This document shows, one piece after another, positions 569 to 18,799 of a DNA stretch of 64,000 nt. This stretch comes from Nitrospirales bacterium (lineage in GTDB: Bacteria; Nitrospirota; Nitrospiria; Nitrospirales; UBA8639). Numbering within the stretch: the first letter of the stretch is position 1; each line of letters opens with the position of its first letter. The stretch spans positions 1-64,000 of the forward strand of contig JAJDBM010000036.1 of assembly GCA_029261355.1 (NCBI GenBank), in the 5' to 3' direction. The notes beneath the pieces are model-generated. The model saw only the letters and a list, made by a program, of their open reading frames with translations. It was not told the origin of the DNA and searched no databases. Made by a program: the position numbers and the translations under genes.

Positions 569-1279
569 CTATCCGTTCTTGACTTTTTTCAATGTCCCGT
601 TTCCATTTTTCCGACCCCAAGATTCATAATGAACCAATTGTTCAAGAGGAAGTCGTTTCCTCCAACCAGCCTTCTCCAAATCTGGATTGGAAGAAAACTC
701 TTTCACATAGCCCATACATAAATAAGCCACCAATTTCACTGGCCGAGGAATACCTACAAGGTTTTTCAAAGCGTCATAGTCCAAAATACTCACCCAGCCA
801 ATACCAATCCCCTCAGCTCGTGCGGCCAACCACAGGTTTTGAATTGCACAGCACGTACTGTAAAGATCTGTCTCTCGAATCGTGGATCGACCCAAAACAT
901 TCGGTCCACCACGCTGCCTAGTACAGGTCACACAAAGATTAATTGGGGCTTCCTCTATGCCTTCAAGCTTGAGACCGCGATACAATGTTCCTTTGGCCCC
1001 ACGGTACCGCTTAGATGCCTCGTCATTTGCCAAGGTAAATAATTGCTTCACCTTTTGCTTGGTGTCCTTTTCGCGGATCACAAGAAAATCCCATGGTTGC
1101 ATGAATCCCACAGAACCCGCATGGTGGGACGCTTTCAAAATTCTCTGTAATGTTGCTTGAGGAATACGTTTCGAAAGAAAGTCACGCCGAACATCTCGAC
1201 GCTCAAAAATTGCACGATAGACCGCATCCCGTTCGTCGACTGAGAAGGCATTGACTTGTTGAGGTATGGACTTTTTCAT
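569..1279 (-). CDS. bluB: 5,6-dimethylbenzimidazole synthase BluB
   Basis: BluB belongs to the nitroreductase fold and cannibalises reduced FMN with oxygen to make 5,6-dimethylbenzimidazole, the lower ligand of cobalamin. The 236-residue protein shows the family signature ERRDVRRDF near residue 28, the SVGFMQPWDF segment of the flavin site, and the GIGIGWVSILD and AYLCMGYVKEF stretches typical of BluB rather than of general nitroreductases. It is the last gene of the B12 island on this strand, about 40 bases downstream of a small CWC protein gene and the cobO gene, and probably shares their transcript. Requirement for oxygen in the BluB reaction implies at least microaerobic growth. No riboswitch sits directly in front of it. 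Confidence 0.88.
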   Translation of the reverse strand: MKKSIPQQVNAFSVDERDAVYRAIFERRDVRRDFLSKRIPQATLQRILKASHHAGSVGFMQPWDFLVIREKDTKQKVKQLFTLANDEASKRYRGAKGTLYRGLKLEGIEEAPINLCVTCTRQRGGPNVLGRSTIRETDLYSTCCAIQNLWLAARAEGIGIGWVSILDYDALKNLVGIPRPVKLVAYLCMGYVKEFSSNPDLEKAGWRKRLPLEQLVHYESWGRKNGNGTLKKVKNG

Positions 1280-1530: not shown

Positions 1531-2127
1531 CTAAAATTCAATGCCTTTTTGCGCCTTAATACCCTTCCGAAATGGGTGCTTAATCATTTTCATTTCTGAC
1601 ACAAGATCAGCCGCTTCAATCAACTCATCCTTTGCCCCACGACCTGTGATGACCACATGCATCATAAGCGGACGCGCATTGATGTCAGCTAAAACTTGGT
1701 CTAAGGAAACATAGTCATGAGTGATGGCAATATTCAGCTCATCAAGAATAACCATCCCATACTCAGGATCCTGTAAAAATCCTACCACAGCCTTCCAAGC
1801 TTCTTGGGCACATTGTTTGTCGCGCTCACGATCTTGCGTTTCCCAGGTATAGCCTTCGCCCATGCGTAAGAATGTGACTTGCTCGTCAAATCCCTTTAAA
1901 ACACGCTCTTCAGCGGTATCAATGGCTCCCTTGATAAATTGCACAACCGCAACTTTCATCCCATGCCCCACGCCACGCATGGCCATACCGAGCGCAGCCG
2001 TTGTTTTCCCCTTTCCTGCTCCCGTATAGACTATCAATAGACCTTTTTCTTCTTGCGCGGCTTCAATACGCCGATCAACGGAGGCTTTGAGTCGCTCCAT
2101 TCGTGCCTGATGATCTTGTTCAGTCAT
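1531..2127 (-). CDS. cobO: cob(I)alamin / cobyrinate a,c-diamide adenosyltransferase
   Basis: This CobO/BtuR/CobA-type enzyme transfers the 5'-deoxyadenosyl group of ATP to reduced corrinoids, giving adenosylcobalamin precursors. The 198-residue protein has the family's P-loop GAGKGKTTAALGMAMR near residue 37, the VVQFIKGA strand, a central VILDELN motif, and the C-terminal MKMIKHPFRKGIKAQKGIEF that closes the active site. Its length is normal. AAAAGGAG lies before the ATG. It lies upstream of the CWC gene and bluB. A 237-base gap without a riboswitch separates it from the PepSY gene upstream, so it may either read through from riboswitch A or have its own promoter. It serves both de novo synthesis and salvage. 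Confidence 0.92.
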   Translation of the reverse strand: MTEQDHQARMERLKASVDRRIEAAQEEKGLLIVYTGAGKGKTTAALGMAMRGVGHGMKVAVVQFIKGAIDTAEERVLKGFDEQVTFLRMGEGYTWETQDRERDKQCAQEAWKAVVGFLQDPEYGMVILDELNIAITHDYVSLDQVLADINARPLMMHVVITGRGAKDELIEAADLVSEMKMIKHPFRKGIKAQKGIEF

Positions 2128-2364: not shown

Positions 2365-3813
2365 TCAGGAAACCCACTCCCGGCACATTCGCTTCCAACC
2401 TATCACGACTCCCGTGACGCTAAATGTAAAACCTACAGATAGGAGTACAAGCATCACGATATCCCATAAGGGCCGATTTTCAACGAGACCTGGAATGTCT
2501 AGGCTGTGTAAACCATTAAACATCCATCGATAGAGTCGACGGCTTTGATCCATCACGGATAAAACCATCCCCGATTCCATATCAATATGCACCCAAGTTT
2601 CTACTGGGTCATCTAGAATGAGTCTCAACGTATTTTGAGGTAGGGCACTGGACCTCAATTGCGAATATGGATCATTTTTTTCTAGTTTTTGAACTAACAT
2701 TACCTTTGACTCAGTCCAAGCAGACTGTACAGCATTAACAATCTTGGCCTTAGTAAGCGTGGCCAGGACAAGTTCCTTAGCATTCACAACCTCATATAAC
2801 TGTACTCCGTTCTGACCTGTTGCTAGAGCAAATGGCTTTGCATCAACAGCCAAGAACTCTATCTCGTTGACATCAACGATAGTTTGAAGAGAAGTCGTCG
2901 TAAATAGTGCGATCGTGTCTTCTAACGTCATTCCGCGATAGTCTTGTAGATGGCTTCGATCAGGCATTGGCGTCGAAAACAACCGTCCATGATCCATAGA
3001 AAGCCACCCACTGGCTATCCAAGTTAATACAAGGACCCCAGCAAATAATCCAAGAATATGATGGCCACGCAACCAACCGGAATATGAGCTCCAGTCACCA
3101 GAACGCTTCACAGACCTAAAGGAATATAATTGCCTCACACCTAAACCAAAGCCAATCATGGTCGTGATGACACCTAAAAGGGAAACCCACCAGACTACCT
3201 GATCCCAAAGTGCCCAATGTCGACGTAATATTGTGGGATAGATCCAATGAATAATCGCTCCGAGGTAATTCCAGGCACGCTCAGGTCTTTGCGTTCGCTG
3301 TAAGACTTCTCCAGTGCGCGATGAAACATACAGGACCGTCGCCTGCGGATCTTGAAAATGGATACGGTAAAACGGTCGATACGCATCAAACTGTTGATGA
3401 ACGATCCATTGATCATAATCAAGCGGACCTTCGATGATTCTAATCGAATGGGCAAAAAATGCTGAAGCCAGACGACCAGAAACTTCTCGATCAATGAGAC
3501 TCGCAGTCTTCTCATCATTAGCGGGAACTGCGATGGCAGATCCCCCATCAGTATGAACAATATAGGTCGGCTTCCCATCGACATCCATGAGTTGTAATCG
3601 TGTAGGATTCTTGATGCCTGATACGTGAAGCGCGTCCGACGGTGATAGAGTAATTTTTGATAAATCGATGAGCGGACGATGCGCTTGCCTTTCGCTCTGA
3701 GAGAGTGAAGGAAAGGGATGATAAATCAGAACAGCGCCACTAAAAAACCACGCAGAAAACATGAGGCATAAACATATCCCAATCCAACGATGTATTAAAC
3801 GGAGAACATGCAT
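2365..3813 (-). CDS. PepSY-associated TM-helix membrane protein
   Basis: This is a 482-residue inner-membrane protein with PepSY-type domains. An N-terminal helix (HRWIGICLCLMFSAWFFSGAVL) is followed by a large extracytoplasmic PepSY-containing region. Further helices lie around residues 195-230 and 255-275, a second soluble region follows, and a final helix sits near residue 455. Relatives next to siderophore receptors are thought to act as ferric-siderophore or metal reductases, with conserved histidines in the helices (HRW at the start, HHILGL in the middle). It lies 21 bases downstream of a TonB receptor gene that is led by a cobalamin riboswitch, so it should be controlled by B12. A role in reducing the imported corrinoid or metal chelate is inferred from this context. 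Confidence 0.78.
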   Translation of the reverse strand: MHVLRLIHRWIGICLCLMFSAWFFSGAVLIYHPFPSLSQSERQAHRPLIDLSKITLSPSDALHVSGIKNPTRLQLMDVDGKPTYIVHTDGGSAIAVPANDEKTASLIDREVSGRLASAFFAHSIRIIEGPLDYDQWIVHQQFDAYRPFYRIHFQDPQATVLYVSSRTGEVLQRTQRPERAWNYLGAIIHWIYPTILRRHWALWDQVVWWVSLLGVITTMIGFGLGVRQLYSFRSVKRSGDWSSYSGWLRGHHILGLFAGVLVLTWIASGWLSMDHGRLFSTPMPDRSHLQDYRGMTLEDTIALFTTTSLQTIVDVNEIEFLAVDAKPFALATGQNGVQLYEVVNAKELVLATLTKAKIVNAVQSAWTESKVMLVQKLEKNDPYSQLRSSALPQNTLRLILDDPVETWVHIDMESGMVLSVMDQSRRLYRWMFNGLHSLDIPGLVENRPLWDIVMLVLLSVGFTFSVTGVVIGWKRMCREWVS

Positions 3814-3834
3814 GATCGTTCATATTCGAATAGA

Positions 3835-6006
3835 TTAAAAATCAATTTGCGCATTTATTTCATATGCTCGAGGAGATCCCAGCAAAACCTGATCCGGGTA
3901 AAAGGTATCGCCCCAATAGGCGTATACTTTATCAAAAATGTTCGTGACTCTTGCTTGAATACGTACCGGTCCCTTGCGATACCCAACATAAATATCCACG
4001 ACCTCATATCCTTTTAACGTCATGGTGTTTGCATTATTGTTAAATCGATCACTGACGTAACGAAATCGCCCTCCGACTTCAAATGGGAGATCAGCAATGT
4101 TGCGGTACCGCGTCCATGCGTTCACAACCCACTTAGGGACATTCGGAGGGCGATTTCCTGAGTTCAAGCCGAAAGACTCAAATTCAGCAGCGGTAAAAAC
4201 CCCGTTGCCCCCCAAACTCCAACGAGAAGTTGCTCGGAACACACCTTCAAATTCAAATCCACTCGATCGTTGCTTCCCAACATTATCAACAACCCCACCG
4301 CTTCCTATCGTCACGAGAATATCCTCTCGTTCGATATAGTATCCAGCCAACAGCACTTCGACGTGACCATCCAAAAACTGAGACTTGATTCCCACTTCCC
4401 ATTGATTCGCATTGGTCAAGTCAAAGTCTTGATTACCATTGACGAGAAAAATATTTGATCCGACAGGGTCAGCTCCAGAGGTCCATTGACCGTAGGTCAC
4501 GATCGAGGGGATGAACTCATACACGACTCCAAGTCGCCAACTGAGAGGACGAAATGTTCGTTCAAACGCATTAGCAGAATTAAAACTTCCATCCAAATTA
4601 AAACTATCACGGTTCAGTCGAATGAAATCTTGACGAAGTGCCGTGACGAGTCTCAAGTGAGAAGTCAGCTCCAAACTATCTTCGAAATACAACGCAACTG
4701 TTGTAATTTTAGTAGGGTTCAGGAATGATTGGCCGGGATCTGCAAACAACCCAGGATTTGGATTGAAAGGATCGACGCTATCAACATTTCCAAAGAATCG
4801 ACTTCTTCGTGTAAAGTCCACATAGCTGAAATCTACTCCCATCAAAGCCGTATTGGGTACACTCACTACCCGCGTTTTCAAGATGGCATTAATCCGATTC
4901 CCGACGGTGCGTTGGTCATGAGAGACGAAAAACCGATCACGGTCAATTAAATTGGTGGCCGCATTAAACGTATACGTTTCTGCGTTGCGCCATTCACGAT
5001 CTGCAGAAAAATAATAAAAAGTATTGCGTATCGACCATAACGAGTTGAGTTTCCAATTTACATCCAGATGCGTAAAATATTGATGTGAATTAGCTTCCTC
5101 ATTCGAAACATTATAGTTCTGGAAACGCATCCGTTCGTCGATGGTTCGTCCATCCGTGGTCTCGACCACACCCTTGAGAGGATTGGTCCCAAAGGTACCG
5201 GAAACCAACGGGGTTCCCCAATAATTAGGCAAGGAATCCTCCAAATAATCAAACCCAATGGTGACTTCTAGATCGTCAAAAGGTTTCCAAAGAAGTGACC
5301 CCGTGCCATTCAACGATCGCGAGTTGGCATTCTCAACATATCCGTCCGTCCCGGCATGACTGATATCTGCTCGATACCAGAGAGTTTCGCCCAACGAACC
5401 GCCTGCTCCAGCCCCTAGTTTGATCGTGTCGTAGCGACCGTACGACGTCAACATCTCCCAAGAATCTTCAGCTTTCATTGAGGGTCGCTTTGTGACGACA
5501 TTCAAGGTACCCGCAATGGCTCCCTGCCCATGAAGAACAGAGGCCGGACCTTTCAGCAGTTCAATTCGATCTAAATTAAATCCGTTTTGTGGGCGACCTG
5601 TCATCGATGCGGGGCCAAGCCAAATCCCATCGCGTAAAATTGTAATTTGATTCTCGGTGAATCCACGCATCGAAAAACTAAAGGGTTGGGCTGGTGAAGC
5701 CCCCCATGTCACTCCAGGAACTGCCTCCACGGCTTCAGCGACGGATTTATAGCCTTCGTTTTTCAATTTGGTATTATCCATGACATGAACAGATGCGGGG
5801 GTCTGGAATATCGTCAGTCCAAGCCGACTGCTAGTTGCAGGGTCACCACTAAAGCGAAGATCCTGTCCAATCACCAGAACTTCCTTTAATTGCATTGGAG
5901 GATCATCTTGTTTTTCTTCGATGACATCTGAATCTTGCGCAAGAGCGACCGAGGCAATGAGTAGGAAGCAGAAGCTTGCCACCAAAGTCCTGAAAAAGCG
6001 TCTCAT
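3835..6006 (-). CDS. TonB-dependent siderophore-type outer-membrane receptor
   Basis: This 723-residue outer-membrane transporter carries a signal peptide ending around ASVALAQ, then a plug domain (TPASVHVMDNTKLKNEGY, PGVTWG, MRGF, RIELLKGPASVLHGQGAIAG, NVVTKRP) and a 22-strand barrel ending in a terminal aromatic (INAQIDF). The plug resembles the FhuA/FpvA-like siderophore receptor family rather than BtuB. An in-frame GTG at 6021 is possible, but the ATG at 6006 has AAAAGGA five bases before it. A cobalamin riboswitch precedes the gene, and a PepSY reductase-like gene follows. The substrate could be a corrinoid, a cobalt chelate or a siderophore; riboswitch control argues for something tied to B12 supply. 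Confidence 0.87.
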   Translation of the reverse strand: MRRFFRTLVASFCFLLIASVALAQDSDVIEEKQDDPPMQLKEVLVIGQDLRFSGDPATSSRLGLTIFQTPASVHVMDNTKLKNEGYKSVAEAVEAVPGVTWGASPAQPFSFSMRGFTENQITILRDGIWLGPASMTGRPQNGFNLDRIELLKGPASVLHGQGAIAGTLNVVTKRPSMKAEDSWEMLTSYGRYDTIKLGAGAGGSLGETLWYRADISHAGTDGYVENANSRSLNGTGSLLWKPFDDLEVTIGFDYLEDSLPNYWGTPLVSGTFGTNPLKGVVETTDGRTIDERMRFQNYNVSNEEANSHQYFTHLDVNWKLNSLWSIRNTFYYFSADREWRNAETYTFNAATNLIDRDRFFVSHDQRTVGNRINAILKTRVVSVPNTALMGVDFSYVDFTRRSRFFGNVDSVDPFNPNPGLFADPGQSFLNPTKITTVALYFEDSLELTSHLRLVTALRQDFIRLNRDSFNLDGSFNSANAFERTFRPLSWRLGVVYEFIPSIVTYGQWTSGADPVGSNIFLVNGNQDFDLTNANQWEVGIKSQFLDGHVEVLLAGYYIEREDILVTIGSGGVVDNVGKQRSSGFEFEGVFRATSRWSLGGNGVFTAAEFESFGLNSGNRPPNVPKWVVNAWTRYRNIADLPFEVGGRFRYVSDRFNNNANTMTLKGYEVVDIYVGYRKGPVRIQARVTNIFDKVYAYWGDTFYPDQVLLGSPRAYEINAQIDF

Positions 6007-6039
6007 CCTTATCCTTTTCACGAGGATCTATCATATAAT

Positions 6040-6190
6040 TCCGGTCAGGTTTCCTGACTTCGGGCATCCTACTAACCATGCCTTCCCATCTTATGAGACA
6101 GTGGCAATCTCTGGTGTTCGTTCCCTTTACAGTTGCGGGACAGCGATGGACTTTCACCAAACTTCCCTAAACCGGATGGACAACAGATGC
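6040..6190 (-). promoter_or_regulatory. cobalamin riboswitch A (upstream of siderophore-type receptor)
   Basis: Read on the minus strand, this leader has the conserved cobalamin-riboswitch elements in order: GGGAAG, the GTGAAAGTCCATCGCTGTCCCGC core, ACTGTAAAGGG, and a B12-box-like GTCAGGAAACCTGAC at about 6044-6058. It ends about 35 bases before the receptor start, and no clear terminator with a U-run is visible, so regulation is probably translational. It begins directly after the DUF2149 gene, so the receptor gene forms its own regulated unit. Confidence 0.9.
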
Positions 6191-6214: not shown

Positions 6215-6517
6215 TTACTTCGATTCCCTTTCAATGAGATAGAGTTTTCCTGTTTTGGGGTCACGGAATACTTGCCCCATTGACTCATATCCGGTCCCAA
6301 GACTTTCAATCCCTGCTGGCAAACCAGGGAGTTCTTGTCCTTTTTCCACGACTTGGGGTTTCGTCAACCGATCAATCAATTCGGGGCTGAGTGCGGCAAG
6401 TGCTGCAATAAGCCCACAGGCAAACACAAGCATGATGTCGACAAAGTTCGCGAGTGGTCCCAAAGGGTCTTCGTCTTGTTGGTCAAATTGGCTTGTACGC
6501 CATGCTGATCGATTCAT
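6215..6517 (-). CDS. DUF2149 protein, ExbD-like
   Basis: This is a DUF2149 protein of about 100 residues with a single membrane helix. The segment DPLGPLANFVDIMLVFACGL (about residues 17-36) closely resembles the ExbD/TolR transmembrane motif, including the aspartate (about D27) that carries protons in ExbD. A short periplasmic tail follows, containing RDPKTGKLYLI. A GTG at 6529 would extend it by four residues, but the ATG at 6517 has the better ribosome site (GAGGTGAG). It lies 13 bases after the ExbB-like gene and is the last gene of the btuB-cobB-cobN-like unit. I infer an ExbB-ExbD-like proton-driven pair serving the exported CobN-like protein. The family's biochemical role is not established. 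Confidence 0.8.
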   Translation of the reverse strand: MNRSAWRTSQFDQQDEDPLGPLANFVDIMLVFACGLIAALAALSPELIDRLTKPQVVEKGQELPGLPAGIESLGTGYESMGQVFRDPKTGKLYLIERESK

Positions 6518-6530
6518 GGTGGCACTCACC

Positions 6531-6968
6531 TCATGATGCTACGGACGCTATCATTTCGTCATACCAACGTCGTCGAAAACGTCCAAGGACAAAGCCGACG
6601 ATTCCCGTCAATAAACCCAAAACTGTGGTATCAAATGCAACAGTCACCGCTGTCGTGAGAATCGATAGATCGCCTTGACCCAAACCGGCTAAACCAGGAC
6701 CTAAGGGAATCAACGTTCCCATCAAACCCAACATCGGAGACACTCGCGTCAATATATCTGCCCGTTCGATACGCCGCCGTGCAATATGTTCAAACATCAC
6801 ACGTTCATGACCTGCGGGGATGTGATTTAATCCCCAAAACCGCTCTCCCATAGCAAGTCCAATTTCCCAAATGGCTAACAACAGCATCACTCCTAATCCC
6901 AGAATAATTGGATAGAGGAGAAACGCAACAAACTCATGCATGAGGGTAATGACAGTACCGCTGTACAT
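6531..6968 (-). CDS. MotA/TolQ/ExbB-type proton channel subunit
   Basis: This 145-residue inner-membrane protein of the MotA/TolQ/ExbB family has a first helix near residues 13-33 (LLYPIILGLGVMLLLAIWEIGL). A cytoplasmic loop follows, and then the family signature SPMLGLMGTLIPLGPGLAGL with the second helix. The third helix holds TTAVTVAFDTTVLGLLTGIVGF, with the conserved threonines lining the proton path. It is shorter than flagellar MotA and has no stator-specific features. Its ATG (6968) overlaps the stop of the CobN-like gene and has GGGAGA upstream. It lies just before the ExbD-like DUF2149 gene. Together they should form a proton-motive-force-driven complex linked to the CobN-like protein. 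Confidence 0.82.
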   Translation of the reverse strand: MYSGTVITLMHEFVAFLLYPIILGLGVMLLLAIWEIGLAMGERFWGLNHIPAGHERVMFEHIARRRIERADILTRVSPMLGLMGTLIPLGPGLAGLGQGDLSILTTAVTVAFDTTVLGLLTGIVGFVLGRFRRRWYDEMIASVAS

Positions 6969-9900
6969 CACATTTTCTCCCAGGGTTTCTGACGTCCTCT
7001 TCGAACCCCCAAATACAGAAGGATGGACACAAGAGGAACAAAGAGCCAGAGATGCGGTACCACATCTTCCATCACACTGCTTGTCGAAACAGATTGAACG
7101 TCAGAATTGCTCTCTGAAACTTCGTCAACAGCTATTTCAGCAATTGTGGTCACGGACGCTTCCTGAGCAGGATCCGCCAGACGTTCACGTGATAACACCG
7201 CTTGTAATCCTTGCCATTGCGCTGTATCGATATGACCTGCGAGCCAGTCAAAGAGTGGATGATCAGGTCGAGTATGCCCACTACCTGGCAGACCATGTTG
7301 AATAAGTAAATCAGCCAATTCCCCACTCAATTCTTTCAAGGTCTTGTCGTCTGCTTCCCAAAATCCTTTTTGGGCAGCCACAAGCATCACGGCCAACATA
7401 TTGGTTTTGACATGAACATTTTGACCTTCTTCAAGAAACTCATCCAGACCAAGTTCATAACGATCATCAAGATACACTGACTTGACTTCATCCCACACCG
7501 CACTCGTAATAATCTCGGGATTCGTCACTTGCCAGCCCCATAGATACTCAAGGAATTCACTCCCCATCGTCCGCGCTCCAGCATAATCGTGCTCCATGAG
7601 CGGTCGTAACCAAGCAGGATTCAGAAACTGTCCACGAAGCTCTGTCATTAAGGCCTCGTCTAAATTCACCAGCTTTGATTGCTTCGGATCGGCGTGGCGC
7701 ACAATACGAGCATGAGGTGGCGTTCCTGTGAGACTTTCCACTGCGAGACTGAGCCCTCCAAGATAATCGAAGGCATCATTGTTATCCATAAGGCCATACA
7801 GGTTACTGGCACGACCGAGATAAGTATGTTCGATGTTCCTGACATTTTCTTGAAACCGTTCTTGCCTGCGTTGTCCACGAAAGCCAACTCCATAGGCATG
7901 TCCCATACGATTGAGATAGGACTGAGCAATCTGCGTGCGATCTTCCCAAGCCCCTGAACGTTCAACTAACTTGTTGACTCCAGCACCATACGACCCTGGC
8001 GCCGTTCCAAAGATTCGAAGACTGGCCTCTCGTCCAGCTGTTGTTACGGAAACACCAGTTGCGAGCAAGGCACGGGCTTCGTTAACCCACTGCGCAGCCA
8101 CTCGATTTTGCTGAAGACTCTCACTCCCTCCACTGGCTAACGGTCCTAAGGGCTCAAAGGCTGACTCAAGTGCGGTCACTAACGCCGGATAGTCTCGACG
8201 AATAGTCATGCTCGCACCATCAAGTGCTAACAGCACAGCTTTGTCCAACCATAAAATCTGTTCACCATAGAGGTCGCGAAACAAACCGGACGTCACAAAG
8301 ACCACATCGCGTCGCTCCCCTTTGTCCTCCAAATCTCTTCGGCGAATTGAGGTGAGTATGCCTCGGCTATTCCAAACAGGTTCAACACCCAACATATCCA
8401 ACCCAAAAGCCACCATCGCTCCTTCATCACGAACGGCATCAGAGGCCCAGAGAATGACCGCTTCTTTTCCATTCTGTGAGGCAGGCTTCTCCAAACGAGC
8501 TTTGGTCGCAAGTTCTTTACCTAGGGCAAAACCCAATCGTGTTGGTAAAAGGCTTCCGTCGAGAGCATGGAAATTTCGACCAGTTGGGAGGACTTCTGGA
8601 GTACGGATCGGATCATTGCCTTTTCCTGGTTCTACATAGCCACCAGCTAGTGCATTGAATAATGAATGCCGTTCGGCTTCAGGTGAATTGATAAGATCAA
8701 GACGCATCACGTCGTGCTTTTGGGATCTCTTCTCTTTCCCCACAATTGAAGCCACCATGGTATCGACAGCCTGACTCTTCCAATCAACACCGAAAATATG
8801 CAGACCAAGAGGCATATAGTTTTCCTGTAGCTTGGTCAGATAATGCCCCGTCTCGTGTACGAGCAGAGCATCATCGACCTCATCAAAACGTATTCCTCTA
8901 ATACTCAACTCATCCGCCATGCTGATGGCAAGCTCATCTCGTAGATTGAGAGCTTCAATGCGTTCGCGAATTGCCGTCACTGCTCGGATACGTGCAGATG
9001 AGGCAGAATCAGGATCTGCTGCCTCGAAACTTTCAACAAGTTGTCGCAGACCGAGCAGGTCATCATAAAGTTCCGTTGTACTTAAAGGTGGAGTTAAATG
9101 ACTGAGCATGACAGCAAGTCCACGACGTTTGGCCTGAATGCCCTCTCCAACTCCATCAACGATATAGGGATAAATCCCTGGTGTTTCACCTGCGATATGC
9201 CAAGAATAATCTAGTGGCCCAACTCCCGTACCATGCCGTGGAAGAAATTCGTACGTCGAATGGCGTCCTAAATGAATCAACGCGTCGGCCTGAAACTCTT
9301 CACGCAACCAAAAATAGAAAGCCATGTATTGATGTGTTGGGGGAAAGGTGGTATTGGCATGGAGAAGTTCTTCATTGAGTTCCCAACCTCGTGGAGGTTG
9401 AGGACCAATGAACACATTTCCGAAACGAATGCCGGGAATCACAAATTGTGAGTCATGAACCATGACTCGCCCTGGTACTTCACCCCACCCACCTATGCCC
9501 TCTATCGATGTCTCACGAACAGCCCGATTCAAAGCCGTGGCCATACTCCAGTCTGTTCCACCGTTGATAAGAAGACGATACTGTTGCTCCAGCTGTTCTA
9601 AGAGGTCCTTTGCTCGGTCACGGCTAGGATGATCCGCACCATCAAGAACAAAGCGCACATTCCCCATCACCGTCTCCAGAATTCTGAGTGCGAGAGTGCC
9701 TTCACTTGCGGCAATCGCCACTCGCAAACTTTCGTGAAGATACCCTAACGGTCCGTGTTTCATTTCGGATTGCAATTGAGGCGGTAGGTTTTTGAACCAT
9801 AGGTCATACGTCGCTGCAGTTACTGTAGTTACGACCTTCGACATTCGCTGCAAGGCTTCCGCATGCTCAGGTAGATTCACACCCTGTTCTTGAATCCGAT

Positions 9901-11323
9901 CCAAAAGAGCTTGCGGGTTAAGTGGGAGCTCACCTGTGTCATAACCTAGAGCCTTCATCTGTGTCAGCAGATGCCAGAGACTTGCCGGCACATCAAGGTT
10001 GTCTGCGCCAATGTTATGTCGTCCTGGTGGATGGTTGTAATACACGATCGCAACATGTTTATCGGCATTCGATGTCGCCCTCAGGCGATACCAGTGACTG
10101 ATTCGCTTGATCATCCGATCTGCTTGATCGAGAACTGGCTGAGTAATACTCATCTGAAGTCCAGTTAACGGATGCGTCCAAGACTTCGCGGCTGTGGCGA
10201 GGACAAGAGGTTGACTCAGCCCTTGAATTTCAGGCATCGCAATGCGGTAATGAACGGAGTTCCAGGGAAGACCTTCTTCTGACAACATCCATTGATCATG
10301 TGAACGATCTGTGAGCCGCAATCCTTTCAAAACAGGGACGTTGAGACGCGACAGGACTTGAGTGGCCAGTTCACGCCCCTCCCCACCACCAAGCACAAAA
10401 TCTTGAAGCGAGATAACCGCGGCCAATGGGGCTCTTTCACTCAAGCCTTCGATGACCTTCAAGGCCTCGACGCTACTTTCCCCCCACAAGGCGAAGAGAG
10501 CAAGACAGTCAAATGCATCGCTCCGAGCGGATTTACATAATTGATTGATAAGGTCAATATTTCCCTTACTATCACCTCGGTCATGATCAATAATCGCAAT
10601 CCATGGTTTATCTGTCGTAAGCAAAATTTTATCGTTAGAGATAATGGTTTCGTGTTGATACATCCGAACGTTGTCTCGGGGAAGCAATGAAGCGAGTTCT
10701 ATTTCAACTCCGAAAGTCCGAAACATGAGCCCAATCAAGCTCGCAAGATTTTTTTGCCCACGAGCTTGCCAGTAAGCTTTAGCAAGAATCCAAGCCTTCT
10801 GACGTGGAAACGTTTGGGAACGTTCCTTGACCCAATCCAAGGGACTCTGACTATTTAGAGGAGACAGTCCAATGGCTTTGACCTGTTCGGCATTCAGATC
10901 AGCAAAGAGTGGCCCAGCTTGATCACGAGATTGCGTGACCAGTGCCGGAGTTGAATTGATGGCCAATACAGGCTTTGAAGGATGACGACTGAGAACATGT
11001 TCTAGTCGGACTGCCGCATCACCAAACATCGCGACCGCTAAGATCACATCACTTTGATCAACGAGCTGCTTCACCGCACCATCGCTCATCGTAGAAAATT
11101 GTGTACTTGAGCGAAAGATCAACTGATGATTCGAATGACGATCGTGAAAATAATCTGCACCAGCAGCTAGATCGACAGCCGAACGGTCTGAAACAATCGC
11201 AAGTAACTTCTCTGCATGACTGATGGAGGGTGAAATCAAATGGAGGAAAAGAATGACGCAAGCTGCAACGATGAGCATAGCTCGGCGAGAGAACACAGAC
11301 AGACTCTCTTCATATGATGTCAT
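6968..11323 (-). CDS. exported, membrane-anchored CobN-like chelatase
   Basis: This 1,451-residue protein belongs to the CobN / magnesium-chelatase H family, whose cytoplasmic members insert metal into tetrapyrroles. Family motifs include YYNHPPGRHNIGADNLD (about residue 425), GRHSTYEFLPRHGTG (about 690), GEGIQAKRRGLAVMLSHLTP (about 725) and FGTAPGSYGAGVNKL (about 1120). Unlike classical CobN it starts with a signal peptide (ISPSISHAEKLL, cleavage about residue 37). It ends with a transmembrane helix (LWLFVPLVSILLYLGV) followed by RRGRQK, so the large domain should lie in the periplasm. No CobS or CobT ATPase subunits are in the window. It overlaps cobB by four bases and is followed by ExbB- and ExbD-like genes. 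The nearest described relatives I recall are the HmuS-type proteins of Bacteroidota haem-uptake loci; here the context is cobalamin. Metal removal from, or insertion into, a corrinoid is possible but unproven. Confidence 0.85.
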   Translation of the reverse strand: MTSYEESLSVFSRRAMLIVAACVILFLHLISPSISHAEKLLAIVSDRSAVDLAAGADYFHDRHSNHQLIFRSSTQFSTMSDGAVKQLVDQSDVILAVAMFGDAAVRLEHVLSRHPSKPVLAINSTPALVTQSRDQAGPLFADLNAEQVKAIGLSPLNSQSPLDWVKERSQTFPRQKAWILAKAYWQARGQKNLASLIGLMFRTFGVEIELASLLPRDNVRMYQHETIISNDKILLTTDKPWIAIIDHDRGDSKGNIDLINQLCKSARSDAFDCLALFALWGESSVEALKVIEGLSERAPLAAVISLQDFVLGGGEGRELATQVLSRLNVPVLKGLRLTDRSHDQWMLSEEGLPWNSVHYRIAMPEIQGLSQPLVLATAAKSWTHPLTGLQMSITQPVLDQADRMIKRISHWYRLRATSNADKHVAIVYYNHPPGRHNIGADNLDVPASLWHLLTQMKALGYDTGELPLNPQALLDRIQEQGVNLPEHAEALQRMSKVVTTVTAATYDLWFKNLPPQLQSEMKHGPLGYLHESLRVAIAASEGTLALRILETVMGNVRFVLDGADHPSRDRAKDLLEQLEQQYRLLINGGTDWSMATALNRAVRETSIEGIGGWGEVPGRVMVHDSQFVIPGIRFGNVFIGPQPPRGWELNEELLHANTTFPPTHQYMAFYFWLREEFQADALIHLGRHSTYEFLPRHGTGVGPLDYSWHIAGETPGIYPYIVDGVGEGIQAKRRGLAVMLSHLTPPLSTTELYDDLLGLRQLVESFEAADPDSASSARIRAVTAIRERIEALNLRDELAISMADELSIRGIRFDEVDDALLVHETGHYLTKLQENYMPLGLHIFGVDWKSQAVDTMVASIVGKEKRSQKHDVMRLDLINSPEAERHSLFNALAGGYVEPGKGNDPIRTPEVLPTGRNFHALDGSLLPTRLGFALGKELATKARLEKPASQNGKEAVILWASDAVRDEGAMVAFGLDMLGVEPVWNSRGILTSIRRRDLEDKGERRDVVFVTSGLFRDLYGEQILWLDKAVLLALDGASMTIRRDYPALVTALESAFEPLGPLASGGSESLQQNRVAAQWVNEARALLATGVSVTTAGREASLRIFGTAPGSYGAGVNKLVERSGAWEDRTQIAQSYLNRMGHAYGVGFRGQRRQERFQENVRNIEHTYLGRASNLYGLMDNNDAFDYLGGLSLAVESLTGTPPHARIVRHADPKQSKLVNLDEALMTELRGQFLNPAWLRPLMEHDYAGARTMGSEFLEYLWGWQVTNPEIITSAVWDEVKSVYLDDRYELGLDEFLEEGQNVHVKTNMLAVMLVAAQKGFWEADDKTLKELSGELADLLIQHGLPGSGHTRPDHPLFDWLAGHIDTAQWQGLQAVLSRERLADPAQEASVTTIAEIAVDEVSESNSDVQSVSTSSVMEDVVPHLWLFVPLVSILLYLGVRRGRQKPWEKM

Positions 11324-12702
11324 TTTGACTGTCTGGCCAGCGCCGCCTGAATCAAGGCAACAGGCACTTGAGGATTGCTACTAAAATGGAGATGTGTATA
11401 GAAAGCCATCACATTTCCTACCATGATGCCGTCACCACCTCGATCACGCCCCTGCGAATCAGCAATACGTCCAACATATTCCAGGTCGCCAAGAGTATGC
11501 ATCTGTGAATAGTGAAATTCATGGCCACGCACGGTTATGCCTTGTTCTCCCAGAAGCCCCGAGCATGTGACCGTCAATTCTCGATACCCAAGGGTCATAC
11601 GTTTCCCAGTCATTGAGGTCTCAATGGGAATGACACCGACCATGTCATACACAGTCCCATCAAAGTCACACAATCTTTTTCCCAGGTACATCAGGCCACC
11701 ACATTCCGCATAGATTGCCCCTCCAGCGACGGCAAACTCGTGCACTGCCGATCGCATGGCTAAATTCTTCTCTAATTGTTGAGCATAGACTTCTGGGTAT
11801 CCTCCACCAAAATACAGCAAATCCACATCCGGTAATGCCGTATCATTGATGGGAGAAAACCTCATGAGTTCTGCGCCTTCAGCTTCAAGGAGGTCTAGAT
11901 TGTCACGATAGTAGAAGCAAAAAGCCGGATCATAGGCGACACCGATTTTGACTGAGGGCCTTCTTCTTTGAAGAGCATGGTTCTCCTTATTCAAATCCTC
12001 ATCCGTGAAATGACTACAGGATTGGGCAATCTGTTCAATCAGATCTAGTTCCACGGTTTCCAATACAGATTGCCCTAGCTTCTTATAGAGATCATCGTTC
12101 TTTCCCTCGATCGCCGTTTGAAGACCCAAATGACGATCGGGAATTGTGATCTCTGAATCTGGGCGAAGATATCCGACGACCTTGACATCCGTATCCTGTT
12201 CGACCGCTTCCTTTAATAATTGGTAATGGCCATCATTTTTTATCCGATTAAATAAGACCGCCTTGACCTGAAGAGCTGGATCAAATGTCGCATATCCATG
12301 GACCATCGCGGCCGCCGATCGAGCCATTCCACTACCATCAATGACTAAAAGAACAGGAATGTCTAGTTGTTTCGCTTGTTCAACGGCACTTCCACGATCA
12401 CTGATTGGAGAGCTGCCATCAAAGAGGCCCATCATACCTTCGATGATCGATAAATCTGCATCATGAGCAGCTCGTAAGAAACGCTGTCGATTAATCGCTG
12501 CCTCTAACATCCACCCATCAAGATTCAAAGATTCTCTTCCGCATGCAGCATGATGATGCCCCGGGTCAATAAAGTCTGGACCTATCTTAAACGGCTGCAC
12601 CCGACGCTCCTTAGATCGAAACGCAGCCAACAGCGCCAATGTCACCGTTGTTTTACCGACACCACTATGGGTGCCGGCAATTAAAAGACGAGGATACTTC
12701 AT
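11320..12702 (-). CDS. cobB: cobyrinate a,c-diamide synthase
   Basis: CobB (CbiA in the anaerobic pathway) amidates the a and c side chains of hydrogenobyrinate or cobyrinate using ATP and glutamine. The 460-residue protein has an N-terminal dethiobiotin-synthetase-like ATP domain with GTHSGVGKTTVTLALL, EGMMGLFDG and the FNRIKNDGHY strand. Its C-terminal type 1 glutamine amidotransferase domain has the nucleophile Cys in YAECGGLMYLG and the catalytic His in FYTHLHF. Length and motifs are normal. It follows btuB by three bases and overlaps the CobN-like gene by four bases, so all are under riboswitch B. Its presence in a transport operon hints at salvage of incomplete corrinoids or at a scattered de novo pathway. 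Confidence 0.92.
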   Translation of the reverse strand: MKYPRLLIAGTHSGVGKTTVTLALLAAFRSKERRVQPFKIGPDFIDPGHHHAACGRESLNLDGWMLEAAINRQRFLRAAHDADLSIIEGMMGLFDGSSPISDRGSAVEQAKQLDIPVLLVIDGSGMARSAAAMVHGYATFDPALQVKAVLFNRIKNDGHYQLLKEAVEQDTDVKVVGYLRPDSEITIPDRHLGLQTAIEGKNDDLYKKLGQSVLETVELDLIEQIAQSCSHFTDEDLNKENHALQRRRPSVKIGVAYDPAFCFYYRDNLDLLEAEGAELMRFSPINDTALPDVDLLYFGGGYPEVYAQQLEKNLAMRSAVHEFAVAGGAIYAECGGLMYLGKRLCDFDGTVYDMVGVIPIETSMTGKRMTLGYRELTVTCSGLLGEQGITVRGHEFHYSQMHTLGDLEYVGRIADSQGRDRGGDGIMVGNVMAFYTHLHFSSNPQVPVALIQAALARQSK

Positions 12703-12705
12703 GGA

Positions 12706-14721
12706 TTATTCATTACCCTGAGAATCAGACAAAATAGGTAGTTCAAAATTCACACGCATCCCCCCCCAAATGGACCGACCAGGGGTACCAAAAAACTTGA
12801 TTTCCTCATATTTTCTATCCGCAAGATTCTCTACACGTGTATAGACTTCGATATGGCTGTTGACTTGATACGTTGCGGCTAAATTAAAGATATAGAAGTC
12901 CGGGAGTGGTCGTTGATTCCCTGTCGTACTAAAGCGCGATCCCACATACCGAAAAGTGCCAGTCATACTGAAAGGATCGATGGGCTGATAGGTCAAAGAC
13001 GCACTCCCTTGATGAACAGGCCATCGTGCGAGGCGATTACCAGTCCTTAAGTCTCTGGTTGAGGTGTAAGTATACTGGCCATCAAAATCCAGTCTTTTCA
13101 TGAATCGCAATTCCTGAGCAAGGACGATGTTAAGACTGGCCTCCACTCCCTTCGCTCTAGCGCGCCCAATATTTTGAGCACAAAAACCGGATGGTGCAAA
13201 TGAGCCACACCCTGCAAGATCAAATGCTGACACAATCAATTGTTTATATTTTGTCCAAAAATACCCCACACTCATTTTGATGCGATTGTTAAACAGCGAT
13301 TGATCAAGTGCTACATCAAAATGCTTGCTTTTTTCTGGTTGCAGGGTTGGATTACCAAAATCCGGGAAAAAGAGTTCATTGATATCAGGTGTTCGAAAAC
13401 CTGTCGCATAGCTCGCCCGTAACTTTGTCCCTGTCTCTTTAAGTAGATAACCGCCAGTAAACCGATACGTAGTCCTATCGCCGGCCGTGTTATGGGAATC
13501 CTGACGAAATCCTCCTGTGGCAAATATTCGATCAAATAAATTGAGCTGAGCCTGAGCAAAACCTGCATGACTCGACGTAACTTTTTCAGTAAAAGTCCCT
13601 TTGTTCTTCCCTAGTTGTTCTCGAAACTGGTACCCCACAGTGACAATAACTGGCTTGCCAATATAAAAATTACTTTGTGCTTCAATTCGATTACTCTTGG
13701 TTCGAATATCCGAATTCCCAAAATCCGGTGACGTAGTCTCTACGCCGGATGTCAAACCCAGACGATTGGTTCCGGCTTGATTAATTGACCTCTCTCGGGC
13801 ATGGGAAACGGTAATTTTTCCATCCCACCAATCTGTGAAGGGCTGATGGTAACTTCCGCTGTAAATAAACTGACGGTCGGTTGATTTCTTTTTAAAACTA
13901 TCGAATGGCCCACCACTAAAGGTACTTGAATTATCAAGATCAAGATCTTGATTGATCCAACGAAATACAAATTCTAAACGACCATCACCAGGAATATTCA
14001 CTCCGACTAGAGACGACCCTTGCCAGTTACGAAGCGCGTCACGTTCTCCCGCACCACGCCGAAAATTAACCGAAGAGAATTTTGTCATATCCCAACGGGA
14101 CAACGACAGAGAAACATCGACAGGTCCAATTGCCCCAGCAATACTGCCTCCTTCACGAATAGAGTTATAAGAACCGTATTCGGAGAAGATTCTAGCGACC
14201 GGCGTGCCAGTTCCACGTTTCGTTCGTATGTCAACCACCCCTCCACTCGCATCAGAGCCCCACAACATGCTCTGTGCTCCTCGAAGAATCGTCACCGACT
14301 CAATGTTATCCGTCGTTAATGTGCCAAAATTGAATTGTCCGAGTGTCGCACTATTCACAATGGCTCCATCAATGAGAACCAGCGTTTGATCAGAGCCACC
14401 CCCTCGAATACGAAATGAGGCTGCAGTTCCCGGGCCCCCACTAGAAAATATTGCTGCACCTTGAGTAAACCCAAGTGCATTTACCAAAGTCTTGTCATTT
14501 CGACGCTGAAAGTCTTCAGCGGTAATGAGCTCCACCGCACTCGTGACATGACTAATTGGAATAGGGGTTTTGGTAGCGGTGACAATAACTGGATCTAGTT
14601 GTTGAATATCTTCGGGATCGGAATCACTCGCGGCATGCAGCGGCAATGGGAGGAATAGAAATATAAGAAAAAGCTGAAGTACAAGAACAAGAAAATGACG
14701 AAAAGACGAATAAAAATACAT
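12706..14721 (-). CDS. btuB: TonB-dependent cobalamin receptor BtuB
   Basis: This is a 671-residue outer-membrane receptor for corrinoids. After a signal peptide (LFLPLPLHAASD) come a TonB-box-like segment (DPVIVTATKTP), a plug with AAIFSSGGPGTAASFRIRGG, QTLVLIDGAIVNS, VTILRGAQSMLWGSDASGGV and IRTKRG, and a barrel with the BtuB-typical YATGFRTPDINELFFP and LQPEKSKHFDV. The C-terminus (IWGGMRVNFELPIL) is followed by a polar tail. An upstream in-frame ATG exists at 14742, but the ATG at 14721 has GGGAGG at ideal spacing. A cobalamin riboswitch sits directly upstream. A run of eight G on the coding strand (12760-12767) encodes the Trp-Gly-Gly near the C-terminus and could slip. Confidence 0.9.
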   Translation of the reverse strand: MYFYSSFRHFLVLVLQLFLIFLFLPLPLHAASDSDPEDIQQLDPVIVTATKTPIPISHVTSAVELITAEDFQRRNDKTLVNALGFTQGAAIFSSGGPGTAASFRIRGGGSDQTLVLIDGAIVNSATLGQFNFGTLTTDNIESVTILRGAQSMLWGSDASGGVVDIRTKRGTGTPVARIFSEYGSYNSIREGGSIAGAIGPVDVSLSLSRWDMTKFSSVNFRRGAGERDALRNWQGSSLVGVNIPGDGRLEFVFRWINQDLDLDNSSTFSGGPFDSFKKKSTDRQFIYSGSYHQPFTDWWDGKITVSHARERSINQAGTNRLGLTSGVETTSPDFGNSDIRTKSNRIEAQSNFYIGKPVIVTVGYQFREQLGKNKGTFTEKVTSSHAGFAQAQLNLFDRIFATGGFRQDSHNTAGDRTTYRFTGGYLLKETGTKLRASYATGFRTPDINELFFPDFGNPTLQPEKSKHFDVALDQSLFNNRIKMSVGYFWTKYKQLIVSAFDLAGCGSFAPSGFCAQNIGRARAKGVEASLNIVLAQELRFMKRLDFDGQYTYTSTRDLRTGNRLARWPVHQGSASLTYQPIDPFSMTGTFRYVGSRFSTTGNQRPLPDFYIFNLAATYQVNSHIEVYTRVENLADRKYEEIKFFGTPGRSIWGGMRVNFELPILSDSQGNE

Positions 14722-14769
14722 ACACTGACCTCCCTTTGGCACGAAGGGTGTTCTGGAATGATCTGGCAG

Positions 14770-14935
14770 TTGGATGTCCTGACTTGCGGATCACAGCTTC
14801 TCTGCGCCTTCCCATAGACAACCTGCCTACAGTGACATAATTACAGAGTGACTCCCCGCTTACAGTGGCGGCACCGTGCTGGATTTGCACCAGCTTCCCC
14901 ATTTCTCTCCCAGCGTTGTCCCTTACAGTCCCCTC
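14770..14935 (-). promoter_or_regulatory. cobalamin riboswitch B (upstream of btuB operon)
   Basis: Minus-strand reading gives GGGGAAGCTGGTGCAAATCC, then CGGTGCCGCCACTGTAAGCGG, a variable arm, and the B12 box GCAAGTCAGGACATCC at about 14772-14788. This is the textbook order for a cobalamin riboswitch. It lies between the end of btuD and the start of btuB, and about 50 bases separate the B12 box from the btuB start. No strong terminator hairpin with a U-tract is visible, so translational control of btuB is likely. The unit it controls should run through the DUF2149 gene. Confidence 0.93.
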
Positions 14936-14986
14936 TCCTTTTGTTAAATGATTAAAGAAAAATAACGAAATACAAGAGACGACTCT

Positions 14987-15817
14987 CTAAACCGGCAATG
15001 AAACTCGTGGCATTCCTGATTGAGGATGCCGATCGACTAACACTGCACACCCATACACCTGTTCTAATACATCAGGCATGATGACTTCTTCTGGAGTCCC
15101 CCTCTTTACCATCTGCCCATGATCTAAAAGCAATAACTGATCACAAGATTGACTCGCAAGATTGAGGTCATGCGAAACAAGTACGACCGTCAAGCCACGA
15201 TCTTGATTCAAGCGACGCAATATCCTAGCAATATCTAATTGATGATGAAGATCTAAGAAGGCAGTTGGCTCATCGAGCAGTAATATTTTAGGATGTTGAG
15301 CGAGTGCCCGTGCAATAATCGCTCGTTGCCGTTCACCACCTGAGACATCGGTGATCAGTCGATCGGCAAGATGCACGACATCAAGGTCTTGCATTGCACT
15401 CTGCGCAATCGCCAAATCTTCTGGATCTTCCCAATGGCAGCCACCCAAACCTGCATGATGAGGAAAGCGCCCCATAAGTACCATTTCGCCAATGGTAAAT
15501 GGAAACACTTGCTGCGTTTCCTGAGGCACAAATGCCACTATTCTCGCGATGTCTGCTTGCGAAAGCTGTTCAATATTTTGCCCAAATAGTTCAATGCTAC
15601 CTTCTTGTTTCGTAAAGACTCGAGCCAATAATTTCAACAAGGTACTTTTTCCAGAACCATTCGGACCAAGGATCCCTACGATGCTTCCAGCTTCAATTGT
15701 ATAACTCAATTCGGTTATTACCGCTTCTGGATTCTTAGCAAACCGCGATTGATAACGGTACGTCACGTTCTGCACCGATAACGCAGGAAACGTCACTGGA
15801 TATTCTTCACTGTTCAT
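14987..15817 (-). CDS. btuD: cobalamin ABC transporter ATP-binding protein BtuD
   Basis: This is a 276-residue ATPase of the FecCD/BtuCD importer class. The Walker A motif is GILGPNGSGKSTLLKLL, the Q-loop lies in AFVPQETQQ, the signature is VSGGERQRAIIARALAQ, Walker B is ILLLDEPTAFLD, and the switch His is in VVLVSHDLNLAS. Its ATG overlaps the stop of the btuC permease gene (ATGA), indicating translational coupling. With BtuF and BtuC it forms the inner-membrane uptake system that works with BtuB in the outer membrane. The assignment to cobalamin rather than iron-siderophore comes from the riboswitch at the head of the operon. Confidence 0.9.
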   Translation of the reverse strand: MNSEEYPVTFPALSVQNVTYRYQSRFAKNPEAVITELSYTIEAGSIVGILGPNGSGKSTLLKLLARVFTKQEGSIELFGQNIEQLSQADIARIVAFVPQETQQVFPFTIGEMVLMGRFPHHAGLGGCHWEDPEDLAIAQSAMQDLDVVHLADRLITDVSGGERQRAIIARALAQHPKILLLDEPTAFLDLHHQLDIARILRRLNQDRGLTVVLVSHDLNLASQSCDQLLLLDHGQMVKRGTPEEVIMPDVLEQVYGCAVLVDRHPQSGMPRVSLPV

Positions 15818-16968
15818 GAAATAAACTGAGCCCGTCTATTCATCAAAAGGTAGAGAAACACTGGCCCGCCCACAAGTGCTGTCACCACCCCGACAGGGAT
15901 CTCAGCCGGACTAAAGATTGTCCTGGCAACCGTGTCGGCCACCATGAGAAATATCCCCCCTGTCAATCCGGCCATTGGAAGTAACAGACGATGATCTGCT
16001 CCCAAGACCAAACGGACAGCATGCGGAACAATCAACCCGACAAACCCAATAACTCCACTAAAGGCCACCACGGCTCCCGTCACTAACGCCGTAGCAAAAA
16101 ATACCAATTTCTTAACTCGTTCAACTTCTACGCCAAGTGATCGAGCGCCTTCCTCTCCCAAAGTTAAAAGATTGAGCGACTGAGCCTGAGACCCTAATAC
16201 CACAAATCCAATCCCAAGATAGACCGCCAACACACCCAACGTCTGGTAATCAGGTCCGGTCAGCGAGCCCATCAACCAAGCCATCATCCCAAACACACGA
16301 TTAGGGTCAGCAATACTGGCGAGAAACATAATGAGAGCTGAAAAAATAGCACTGAGCACCACGCCTGCCAATAACAAAGTATAGATAGAAAACCCATAGT
16401 TGGTGGCGGCAATCTGATAAATAATCATCAAGGACACCACAGCTCCCAGAAATGCGCAGATTGGGAGAGCCGCGACACTCCACATTGACACTCCCACTCC
16501 AAACAACAGCGCGATGGCCGCGCCTAAGGCTGCACCACTAGAAATACCCAAGACAGAAGGATCGGCTAAAGGGTTGCGCAACAACGCTTGAAGCGACACT
16601 CCGACGGCAGCAAGGCTGCCACCCACGAGACATGCTAAAAGAAGCCGTGGGAGGCGGATTTGAAAAAGGATAATATTCGTCGGATCGGTGCTCACATCCG
16701 CTTGATCTGAAGACGTCATGGCCTGAAAAAATAGACTAATCATTTTGGGGAGCTCAATGACTTGCGTGCCATAGCGAAGACACATGATCAACACCACCAT
16801 GGTCAGTCCCAACCATAGGCCAACCCAGAATAACCATCGCGAAAATGTCAATGAGCGAATTTCTGTCGCAGAAGATGTGGCTTGAATTGGTAAGGGCACA
16901 GGGTCTGTGATCTTCCCGGAGAAATGAGAAGAGGGATCCGAAGATGTTTCTACAGGTAATTTCACCAT
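15814..16968 (-). CDS. btuC: cobalamin ABC transporter permease BtuC
   Basis: This is a 384-residue FecCD-type permease with about ten transmembrane helices. Family signatures include LPRLLLACLVGGSLAAVGVSL, LLRNPLADPSVLGISSGAALGAA, and the C-terminal GFVGLIVPHAVRLVLGADHR coupling region, followed by PAEIPVGVVTALVGGPVFLYLL. The N-terminus has an unusually long polar extension of about 50 residues before the first helix. A TTG at 16983 could add five residues; I prefer the ATG at 16968. It follows the small lipoprotein gene by about 30 bases and overlaps btuD. It should act with the BtuF-like binding protein. Confidence 0.88.
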   Translation of the reverse strand: MVKLPVETSSDPSSHFSGKITDPVPLPIQATSSATEIRSLTFSRWLFWVGLWLGLTMVVLIMCLRYGTQVIELPKMISLFFQAMTSSDQADVSTDPTNIILFQIRLPRLLLACLVGGSLAAVGVSLQALLRNPLADPSVLGISSGAALGAAIALLFGVGVSMWSVAALPICAFLGAVVSLMIIYQIAATNYGFSIYTLLLAGVVLSAIFSALIMFLASIADPNRVFGMMAWLMGSLTGPDYQTLGVLAVYLGIGFVVLGSQAQSLNLLTLGEEGARSLGVEVERVKKLVFFATALVTGAVVAFSGVIGFVGLIVPHAVRLVLGADHRLLLPMAGLTGGIFLMVADTVARTIFSPAEIPVGVVTALVGGPVFLYLLMNRRAQFIS

Positions 16969-16996
16969 ACCATTCCGTCCCAACCCTCTTGCTCTA

Positions 16997-17380: not shown

Positions 17381-17439
17381 GCCCACTCCTTATTGAAAAC
17401 CTGAAATATCATTGCGTATACACATTCTTGGAAAGAGCA

Positions 17440-18479: not shown

Positions 18480-18625
18480 ACCCGTTTCATCATCCTCACC
18501 CATTCCCCAGCCCACGAGGGAAAGAAGGTCATCGAATGAAGAAGTATTCTGGCTTCTGGGCTTTGCCCAGTTACAGCGGCGGGACCACGTGGGACTTCCA
18601 CCCACTTCCCTTCTAGCATTCTGTA
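18480..18625 (-). promoter_or_regulatory. cobalamin riboswitch C (upstream of btuF)
   Basis: Read on the minus strand: GGGAAGTGGGTGGAAGTCCCAC, GGTCCCGCCGCTGTAACTGGG, and the B12-box-like GAAGCCAGAATAC at about 18541-18557. These are conserved cobalamin-riboswitch blocks in the correct order. About 60 bases of linker lead to the terminator hairpin at 18437-18477. It should shut off the btuF-lipoprotein-btuC-btuD unit when adenosylcobalamin is plentiful. Confidence 0.92.
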
Positions 18626-18799
18626 TACATGTGAGATCGACTCTAGGCTAGAACTCAAATGCTTGTCAACTCTCCTAAAAAAAGCAACTTTTAGGGTAGA
18701 ATTTTTCAGCACATATTTAGAACAAGTCGAGAGGCTATGCAACAAGTGAACTGAGATGAAAAATGAATTAGCCAGGAAAACTGATTGACATATTGACCT

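Follow-up and report, generated by a model that had tools for sequence, protein, structure and literature searches.

A B12-riboswitch-controlled CobN-like protein with export features and an ExbB/DUF2149 pair in a Nitrospirales bacterium: a putative periplasmic step in corrinoid salvage

A btuB-cobB-cobN-exbB-DUF2149 operon placed behind a cobalamin riboswitch was found in a Nitrospirales bacterium, and its CobN-like protein, which carries export features, is best read together with its ExbB-like and DUF2149 partners as a module for proton-motive-force-coupled corrinoid processing in the periplasm during salvage (probability roughly 0.6). Judged from the riboswitches, the scarcity of a corrin-ring marker and the presence of CbiB, CobB and a BtuC-type permease in the carrier genomes, the module appears to be B12-repressed, periplasmic and a belonging of corrinoid salvagers. 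As candidate chemistry we favour the insertion or exchange of a metal in salvaged corrinoids; the more specific assignment to cobalt, inserted or exchanged, is tentative and less likely than not.

The DNA analyzed was the first 64,000 nucleotides (positions 1-64,000, hereafter the window) of contig JAJDBM010000036.1 in assembly GCA_029261355.1. A sequence-only reading of the window had reported a gene trio for the CobN-like, ExbB-like and DUF2149 proteins, and all three genes were found in place on the minus strand, overlapping or nearly touching (Table 1). The same reading had placed the trio with btuB and cobB behind a cobalamin riboswitch, and this arrangement was confirmed by the RF00174 match and by the spacings of +3 (btuB-cobB), -4 (cobB-cobN), -4 (cobN-exbB), and +1 nt (exbB-DUF2149). 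The operon riboswitch scored 118 bits with our own model built from 11 riboswitches. The best NCBIfam match of the btuB-like receptor was TonB-B12 (TIGR01779; 246.6 bits, below the cut-off of 599.7), and cobB also matched TIGR00379 (471 bits, cut-off 261). Because three B12 riboswitches, btuB, btuFCD, cobB, bluB, and cobO lie together in it, this stretch of the window was assigned as a corrinoid uptake and salvage region.

Table 1. Features of the corrinoid uptake and salvage region in the window
Feature	Position	Strand	Evidence
bluB, corrinoid salvage gene	569-1279	-	TIGR02476, 257 bits (cut-off 150)
cobO, corrinoid salvage gene	1531-2127	-	PRK05986, 277 bits (cut-off 185)
Second cobalamin riboswitch, 5' of second TonB-dependent receptor (3835-6021)	6027-6190	-	RF00174, 85.4 bits
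DUF2149 protein, 104 aa, single membrane helix	6215-6529	-	PF09919, 24.5 bits (cut-off 27.1)
ExbB/TolQ-like protein, minimal three-helix form, 146 aa	6531-6971	-	PF01618, 35 bits (cut-off 22.9), E 1e-8
CobN-like class I chelatase-fold protein, 1451 aa	6968-11323	-	PF02514, 800 bits
cobB, cobyrinate/hydrogenobyrinate a,c-diamide synthase	11320-12702	-	NF002204, 498 bits (cut-off 254)
btuB-like TonB-dependent receptor	12706-14742	-	PF00593/PF07715
Cobalamin riboswitch, 5' of btuB-cobB-cobN-exbB-DUF2149 operon	14751-14941	-	RF00174, 79.3 bits (gathering score 31.5)
btuF-(BamE-like lipoprotein)-btuC-btuD, corrinoid ABC importer	14987-18438	-	Peripla_BP_2, ABC_tran, FecCD
Third B12 riboswitch, 5' of btuF-btuC-btuD	18493-18632		RF01482, 56.7 bits

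Several further features of the region were noted. The second TonB-dependent receptor is of the siderophore type, for which a cobalamin riboswitch of its own is unusual; a gene for a PepSY_TM protein (2365-3813) also lies behind this riboswitch (window positions 2365-6190), and a riboswitch stands at the matching place after the module in four other loci (L057, L058, L111, and L121). Between btuC and btuF, a gene at 16997-17386 encodes a small protein that resembles a lipoprotein and weakly matches BamE.

The expectation that the bulk of the CobN-like protein lies outside the cytoplasm was borne out by its two termini, and no confident cytoplasmic localization emerged from these sequence features. 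A hydrophobic segment (residues 16-34) and the plausible cleavage site after it (SHA/EK) make up a putative signal peptide of about residues 1-37, and a second hydrophobic segment (residues 1421-1439) is followed by the basic stretch RRGRQK. A signal-peptide-like start was found in 78 of the 80 listed relatives and in none of the cytoplasmic CobN, BchH, and archaeal-type sequences compared. These sequence features make a strong, if not formal, case for export and cleavage of the protein and for its retention in the inner membrane through the C-terminal helix.

At least 80 relatives of the window CobN-like protein (43-73% identity, near full length in most) were obtained by a scan of bacterial genomes, and the hosts of those listed were Nitrospirales, Nitrospinae, gamma- and betaproteobacteria, Arcobacter-type Campylobacterota, and Myxococcota. 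ExbB and DUF2149 genes adjoin nearly all of the 80 listed relatives, and since the arrangement recurs in this way in other genomes, it is not due to chance. In the phylogeny, the window family formed one clade on a long stem (SH-aLRT 100), and cytoplasmic CobN, ChlH/BchH and archaeal-type proteins formed another (SH-aLRT 100). A common clade of the window family with CobN was rejected (p-AU 6.5e-5), which set the family apart from the CobNST cobaltochelatases as had been anticipated, and a common clade with HmuS was not rejected (p-AU 0.31). The proposed kinship with the HmuS loci of Bacteroidota was likewise upheld, the best PDB match of the window protein being HmuS (9d26, E 1e-108) and the ExbB/DUF2149 partners being the same. 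The window family thus belongs to the HmuS/BtuS kind but forms its own clade. It is not an HmuS orthologue, the residues that define HmuS being absent, and the p-AU of 0.31 concerns a sister grouping.

A second module of a CobN-like protein with signal peptide and membrane helix, ExbB and DUF2149 was found on contig C40 of the same genome (L013:5167-10215) and falls in a different clade. It adjoins genes for a PepSY-domain protein and a di-haem oxidoreductase. No Rfam riboswitch was found at the C40 copy, and the model built from 11 sequences gave no riboswitch at C40-type paralogs or HmuS loci.

The ExbB-like and DUF2149 proteins had been read as a dedicated ExbB/ExbD-like pair in which the DUF2149 helix carries an ExbD-like Asp, and the data below agree with both points. 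The ExbB-like protein scored above the PF01618 cut-off and has the three-helix fold of MotA/TolQ/ExbB: its AlphaFold model (pLDDT 91.7) consists of three long helices, and the 38 top-ranked PDB folds were ExbB/TolQ, none of them with E < 0.001. PF09919 matched the DUF2149 protein of a close relative (L057) with 28.4 bits and that of the C40 copy with 107.6 bits (cut-off 27.1). The membrane Asp31 of DUF2149 was invariant in 99 of 99 relatives and aligns with the membrane Asp of ExbD. The profile match with ExbD was confined to the Asp helix (score 26.7, P 9e-4; ten shuffled controls and one C-tail control, all ≤14.6), and a structure model of DUF2149, of low confidence, had no recognizable ExbD periplasmic domain. 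HmuV (= DUF2149) was described as having no known homology (PMC13227078).

The presence of the C-terminal anchor and of a DUF2149 neighbour was coupled among 109 full-length superfamily members, which through kinship are not independent of one another (both in 91, neither in 12, and mixed in 3 + 3; Fisher p 6e-11), and several of the mixed cases were frameshifted or at contig ends. The coupling recurred in four clades, namely the window family, HmuS, the C40-type, and a Nitrospirota TonB-receptor clade, and among the superfamily members examined the cytoplasmic CobN/ChlH proteins had neither feature. Three loci depart from the usual form. On a Cupriavidus plasmid (L167:6299-10372), a long-branched CobN-like protein with an anchor had no detected ExbB/DUF2149 neighbour, and the product of the gene after it groups with canonical CobN. 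In a second locus (L053:6257-13581), the CobN-like gene is split into two pieces (761 + 583 aa) about 3.3 kb apart, adjoins ExbB/DUF2149 and carries the HmuS-type LDHxFEYMGG motif. In a member of the window family on a plasmid of Marinobacter sp. M3C (L168:7983-12185), the signal peptide is present, the C-terminal anchor, ExbB and DUF2149 are missing, and cobO follows directly; the missing stretch looks to have been lost together, perhaps by one deletion.

The riboswitches and the B12-salvage neighbours now tie the module strongly to corrinoids and not to heme. When the 80 loci of the listed relatives were scanned with the model built from 11 riboswitches, 69 of them had a cobalamin riboswitch 5' on the same strand, and 49 had it immediately 5' of the cobN-like gene (<450 nt); at least 5 of the 11 loci without one were cut by contig ends. 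The recurrent neighbours were btuB, btuFCD, cobB, cobO, cobQ, cbiB, cobU, cobS, and bluB, and neither hmuY nor heme genes were among those of the listed relatives. The corrin-ring marker CbiC/CobH, carried by 99% of cobamide producers versus 5% of cobinamide salvagers (PMC6461909), was detected in 5/49 carrier genomes, some of which are drafts, versus 117/299 Pseudomonadota (Fisher p 4e-5), and was thus missing in 44/49. CbiB was found in 49/49 and CobB in 42/49 carriers; since 46% of precursor salvagers in general have CobB (PMC6461909), the latter is an enrichment and not a unique trait. A FecCD/BtuC-type permease was present in 49/49 carriers, by which an alternative inner-membrane B12 importer replacing BtuCD was ruled out. 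According to its marker profile (CobH absent; CobB, CobO, CbiB, and BluB kept), the Nitrospirales genome itself has no ring synthesis and retains the later steps.

Residues were mapped on HmuS of B. thetaiotaomicron (PMC12583661), in which His-538 is essential. H688 and E727 of the window protein correspond to HmuS His-538 and Glu-577, respectively, and both were conserved in 80/80 listed relatives, as were many other superfamily-invariant residues. The position of HmuS Thr-537 is occupied by Arg (R687) in 80/80 listed relatives and by Lys in 4/4 CobN, that of HmuS His-1209 by Asp (D1183) in 80/80 and also in 4/4 CobN, and that of HmuS Gly-539 by Ser in 80/80, a signature of the family. Because the His and Glu are invariant and two positions are CobN-like, the active centre looks catalytic, and at the R687 and D1183 positions it looks nearer to CobN than to HmuS. 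The heme axial ligands of HmuS were not found in the window protein (a gap for Met-79 and Asp308 for His-254), the Met-rich insertion was absent from its aligned stretch, and in place of the LSLDHxxEFMGG motif with His-1209 it reads DNNDAFDYLGG.

In the proposed mechanism, the module would be switched on when adenosylcobalamin is scarce, and the CobN-fold protein, held after export and cleavage by its C-terminal inner-membrane anchor, would encounter BtuB-imported corrinoids ahead of their onward transport by BtuFCD. As the strict gene coupling suggests, proton-motive energy would come from the ExbB-like/DUF2149 pair, with its invariant membrane Asp, in place of an ATP-driven CobST or ChlID motor of the sort that powers the cytoplasmic relatives; the proton channel probably replaces the CobST ATPase. 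Metal-free or wrongly metallated salvaged corrinoids would be converted at the corrin centre to cobalt corrinoids, which would then be finished by cytoplasmic CobB, CobO, and CbiB. We infer both that the channel drives the CobN-like protein and that corrinoids are its substrate. In its most specific form, that of a periplasmic class I cobaltochelatase driven by the proton-motive force, with the CobST motor replaced by ExbB/DUF2149 and with cobalt-free or mis-metallated salvaged corrinoids as the molecules metallated, in bacteria that no longer make the ring but retain the steps from CobB on, the proposal is rather doubtful. Insertion would require that metal-free or mis-metallated corrinoids be within reach of the carriers and that the periplasm receive a supply of cobalt. 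Further points count against proton-motive-force-coupled corrinoid processing: HmuS, the nearest characterized relative, takes metal out and in vitro needs NADH and not a proton gradient; CobB is often kept by other salvagers that have no ring genes (PMC6461909) and is therefore only partly informative; and the Marinobacter member (L168) is without anchor, ExbB and DUF2149.

It is possible, though again with some doubt, that the CobN-like protein only binds corrinoids as a non-catalytic shuttle, the ExbB/DUF2149 pair driving their pull from BtuB or their hand-over to BtuF with the metal unchanged. The constant co-occurrence of the BtuC-type permease (49/49 carriers), the co-regulation with btuB and btuFCD, and the inability of the carriers to make the corrin ring are consistent with such a role; the catalytic His and Glu and the many superfamily-invariant residues kept in all 80 listed relatives, however, would be unneeded by a mere binder. 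E. coli, for example, has a BtuB/BtuF system that works without a CobN-like protein.

A periplasmic de-chelatase that would take cobalt (or a different metal) out of corrinoids, in analogy to the removal of heme iron by HmuS, is unlikely. The closest solved structure is that of HmuS, a demonstrated de-chelatase (PMC12583661) with the same ExbB/DUF2149 partners (PMC10434189), but such an activity would destroy B12 just when the riboswitch reports its shortage, and the 44/49 genomes without the ring marker could not rebuild the ring; cobalt removal is disfavoured for these reasons, and the replacement of HmuS His-1209 by Asp in 80/80 listed relatives also speaks against it. Release of iron from heme or another porphyrin, by an HmuS orthologue that just happens to lie in a B12 locus, is very improbable: the shared architecture and the unrejected common clade with HmuS fit it, whereas the missing Met-79, His-254, Met-rich insertion and LSLDHxxEFMGG motif, a set of recurrent neighbours free of hmuY and heme genes, and the B12 riboswitch of 69/80 listed relatives do not.

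Just as improbable is a private TonB system, in which the ExbB-like/DUF2149 pair would power an outer-membrane receptor and the CobN-like protein would be incidental. TonB-dependent receptors are frequent neighbours, and HmuU/HmuV were assigned to the energization of HmuR in B. thetaiotaomicron (PMC12583661); against this, the riboswitch lies directly before cobN in 49/80 listed relatives, many loci have no btuB-like gene detected nearby, and the pair follows anchored CobN proteins across the four clades. In addition, the Nitrospirales genome has four separate ExbD genes.

Classical CobN is cytoplasmic and works with CobS and CobT. The absence of CobT (PF06213) from the window, noted earlier, extends to the whole Nitrospirales genome, which by this CobT search has no cobST pair elsewhere; a place in the CobNST clade was not found either. 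PF06213 matched in 5/49 carriers (4 above the cut-off) and was absent in 44/49. Used to look for a CobS or ChlI AAA partner, PF01078 gave one 319-bit match in the Nitrospirales genome (a 511-aa frame read as ComM), the others scoring <29 bits. An orthodox CobN subunit of cobalamin biosynthesis, mislocalized in the earlier reading, is suggested by the family models, which annotate CobN, and by the operon shared with cobB, the preceding step of the aerobic pathway, but it is extremely improbable, and canonical CobN was ruled out by the tree (p-AU 6.5e-5), by partners (CobT absent), by score (every equivalog model below its cut-off, e.g., 463 versus 822 bits), and by the signal peptide and anchor; the absence of CobH also speaks against it.

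Heme (HmuS) loci and, judged by regulation, zinc loci had already provided examples of exported CobN-like proteins accompanied by ExbB/DUF2149. The riboswitches of the present clade, which is large and distinct, tie it to B12 scarcity, and it is also linked to genomes without corrin-ring synthesis; an unrecognized periplasmic step in B12 salvage is thereby predicted. The clade helps to explain the 'cobaltochelatase' annotations noted in non-producers (PMC6461909). If the proton drive is true, an ATP motor would have been swapped for a proton channel on one chelatase fold, and DUF2149 (HmuV) would gain a role.

The exported CobN-like kind is already known from HmuS (PMC12583661), BtuS (PMC6460266), and a Zur-regulated P. 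aeruginosa gene set (PMC4542158). An exported CobN under control of a B12 riboswitch was not described in the literature searched; Rodionov et al. 2003, outside that search, may mention such loci. With CobNST and ChlHID, the window protein shares the PF02514 fold family, the catalytic His and Glu, and the CobN-like Lys/Arg and Asp at two positions, whereas CobN and ChlH are cytoplasmic, have ATP-motor partners and stand in a ring-synthesis context. The likeness to ExbB/ExbD and TolQ/TolR lies in the ExbB-like fold and proton-channel family and in the aligned membrane Asp of DUF2149, but the ExbB-like protein has only 146 aa, and DUF2149 lacks a recognizable ExbD periplasmic domain in its low-confidence model. 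The Pseudomonas aeruginosa PA1922-PA1925 genes (PMC4542158) form a similar set (TonB receptor, CobN-like, ExbD-like, and hypothetical protein), set apart by their description as Zur/zinc-regulated and not B12-regulated. BtuS1/BtuS2 of B. fragilis, whose name and designation as a 'third type' of CobN relative were credited to Rodionov et al. 2003 (PMC6460266), are predicted to be periplasmic and membrane anchored, but were studied in heme iron assimilation, in contrast to corrinoid salvage under a B12 riboswitch. HmuS, encoded with HmuT-U-V in the Bacteroidota hmu operon (PDB 9D26; PMC12583661, PMC10434189), is likewise an exported, anchored CobN-fold protein with adjoining ExbB-like, DUF2149 and TonB receptor genes and with conserved His-538 and Glu-577; the window family differs from it as a separate clade without Met-79, His-254, the Met-rich insertion and His-1209, and the window locus differs in having no HmuY, in having no HmuT-type gene between cobN and exbB, and in being controlled by a B12 riboswitch among B12-salvage genes.
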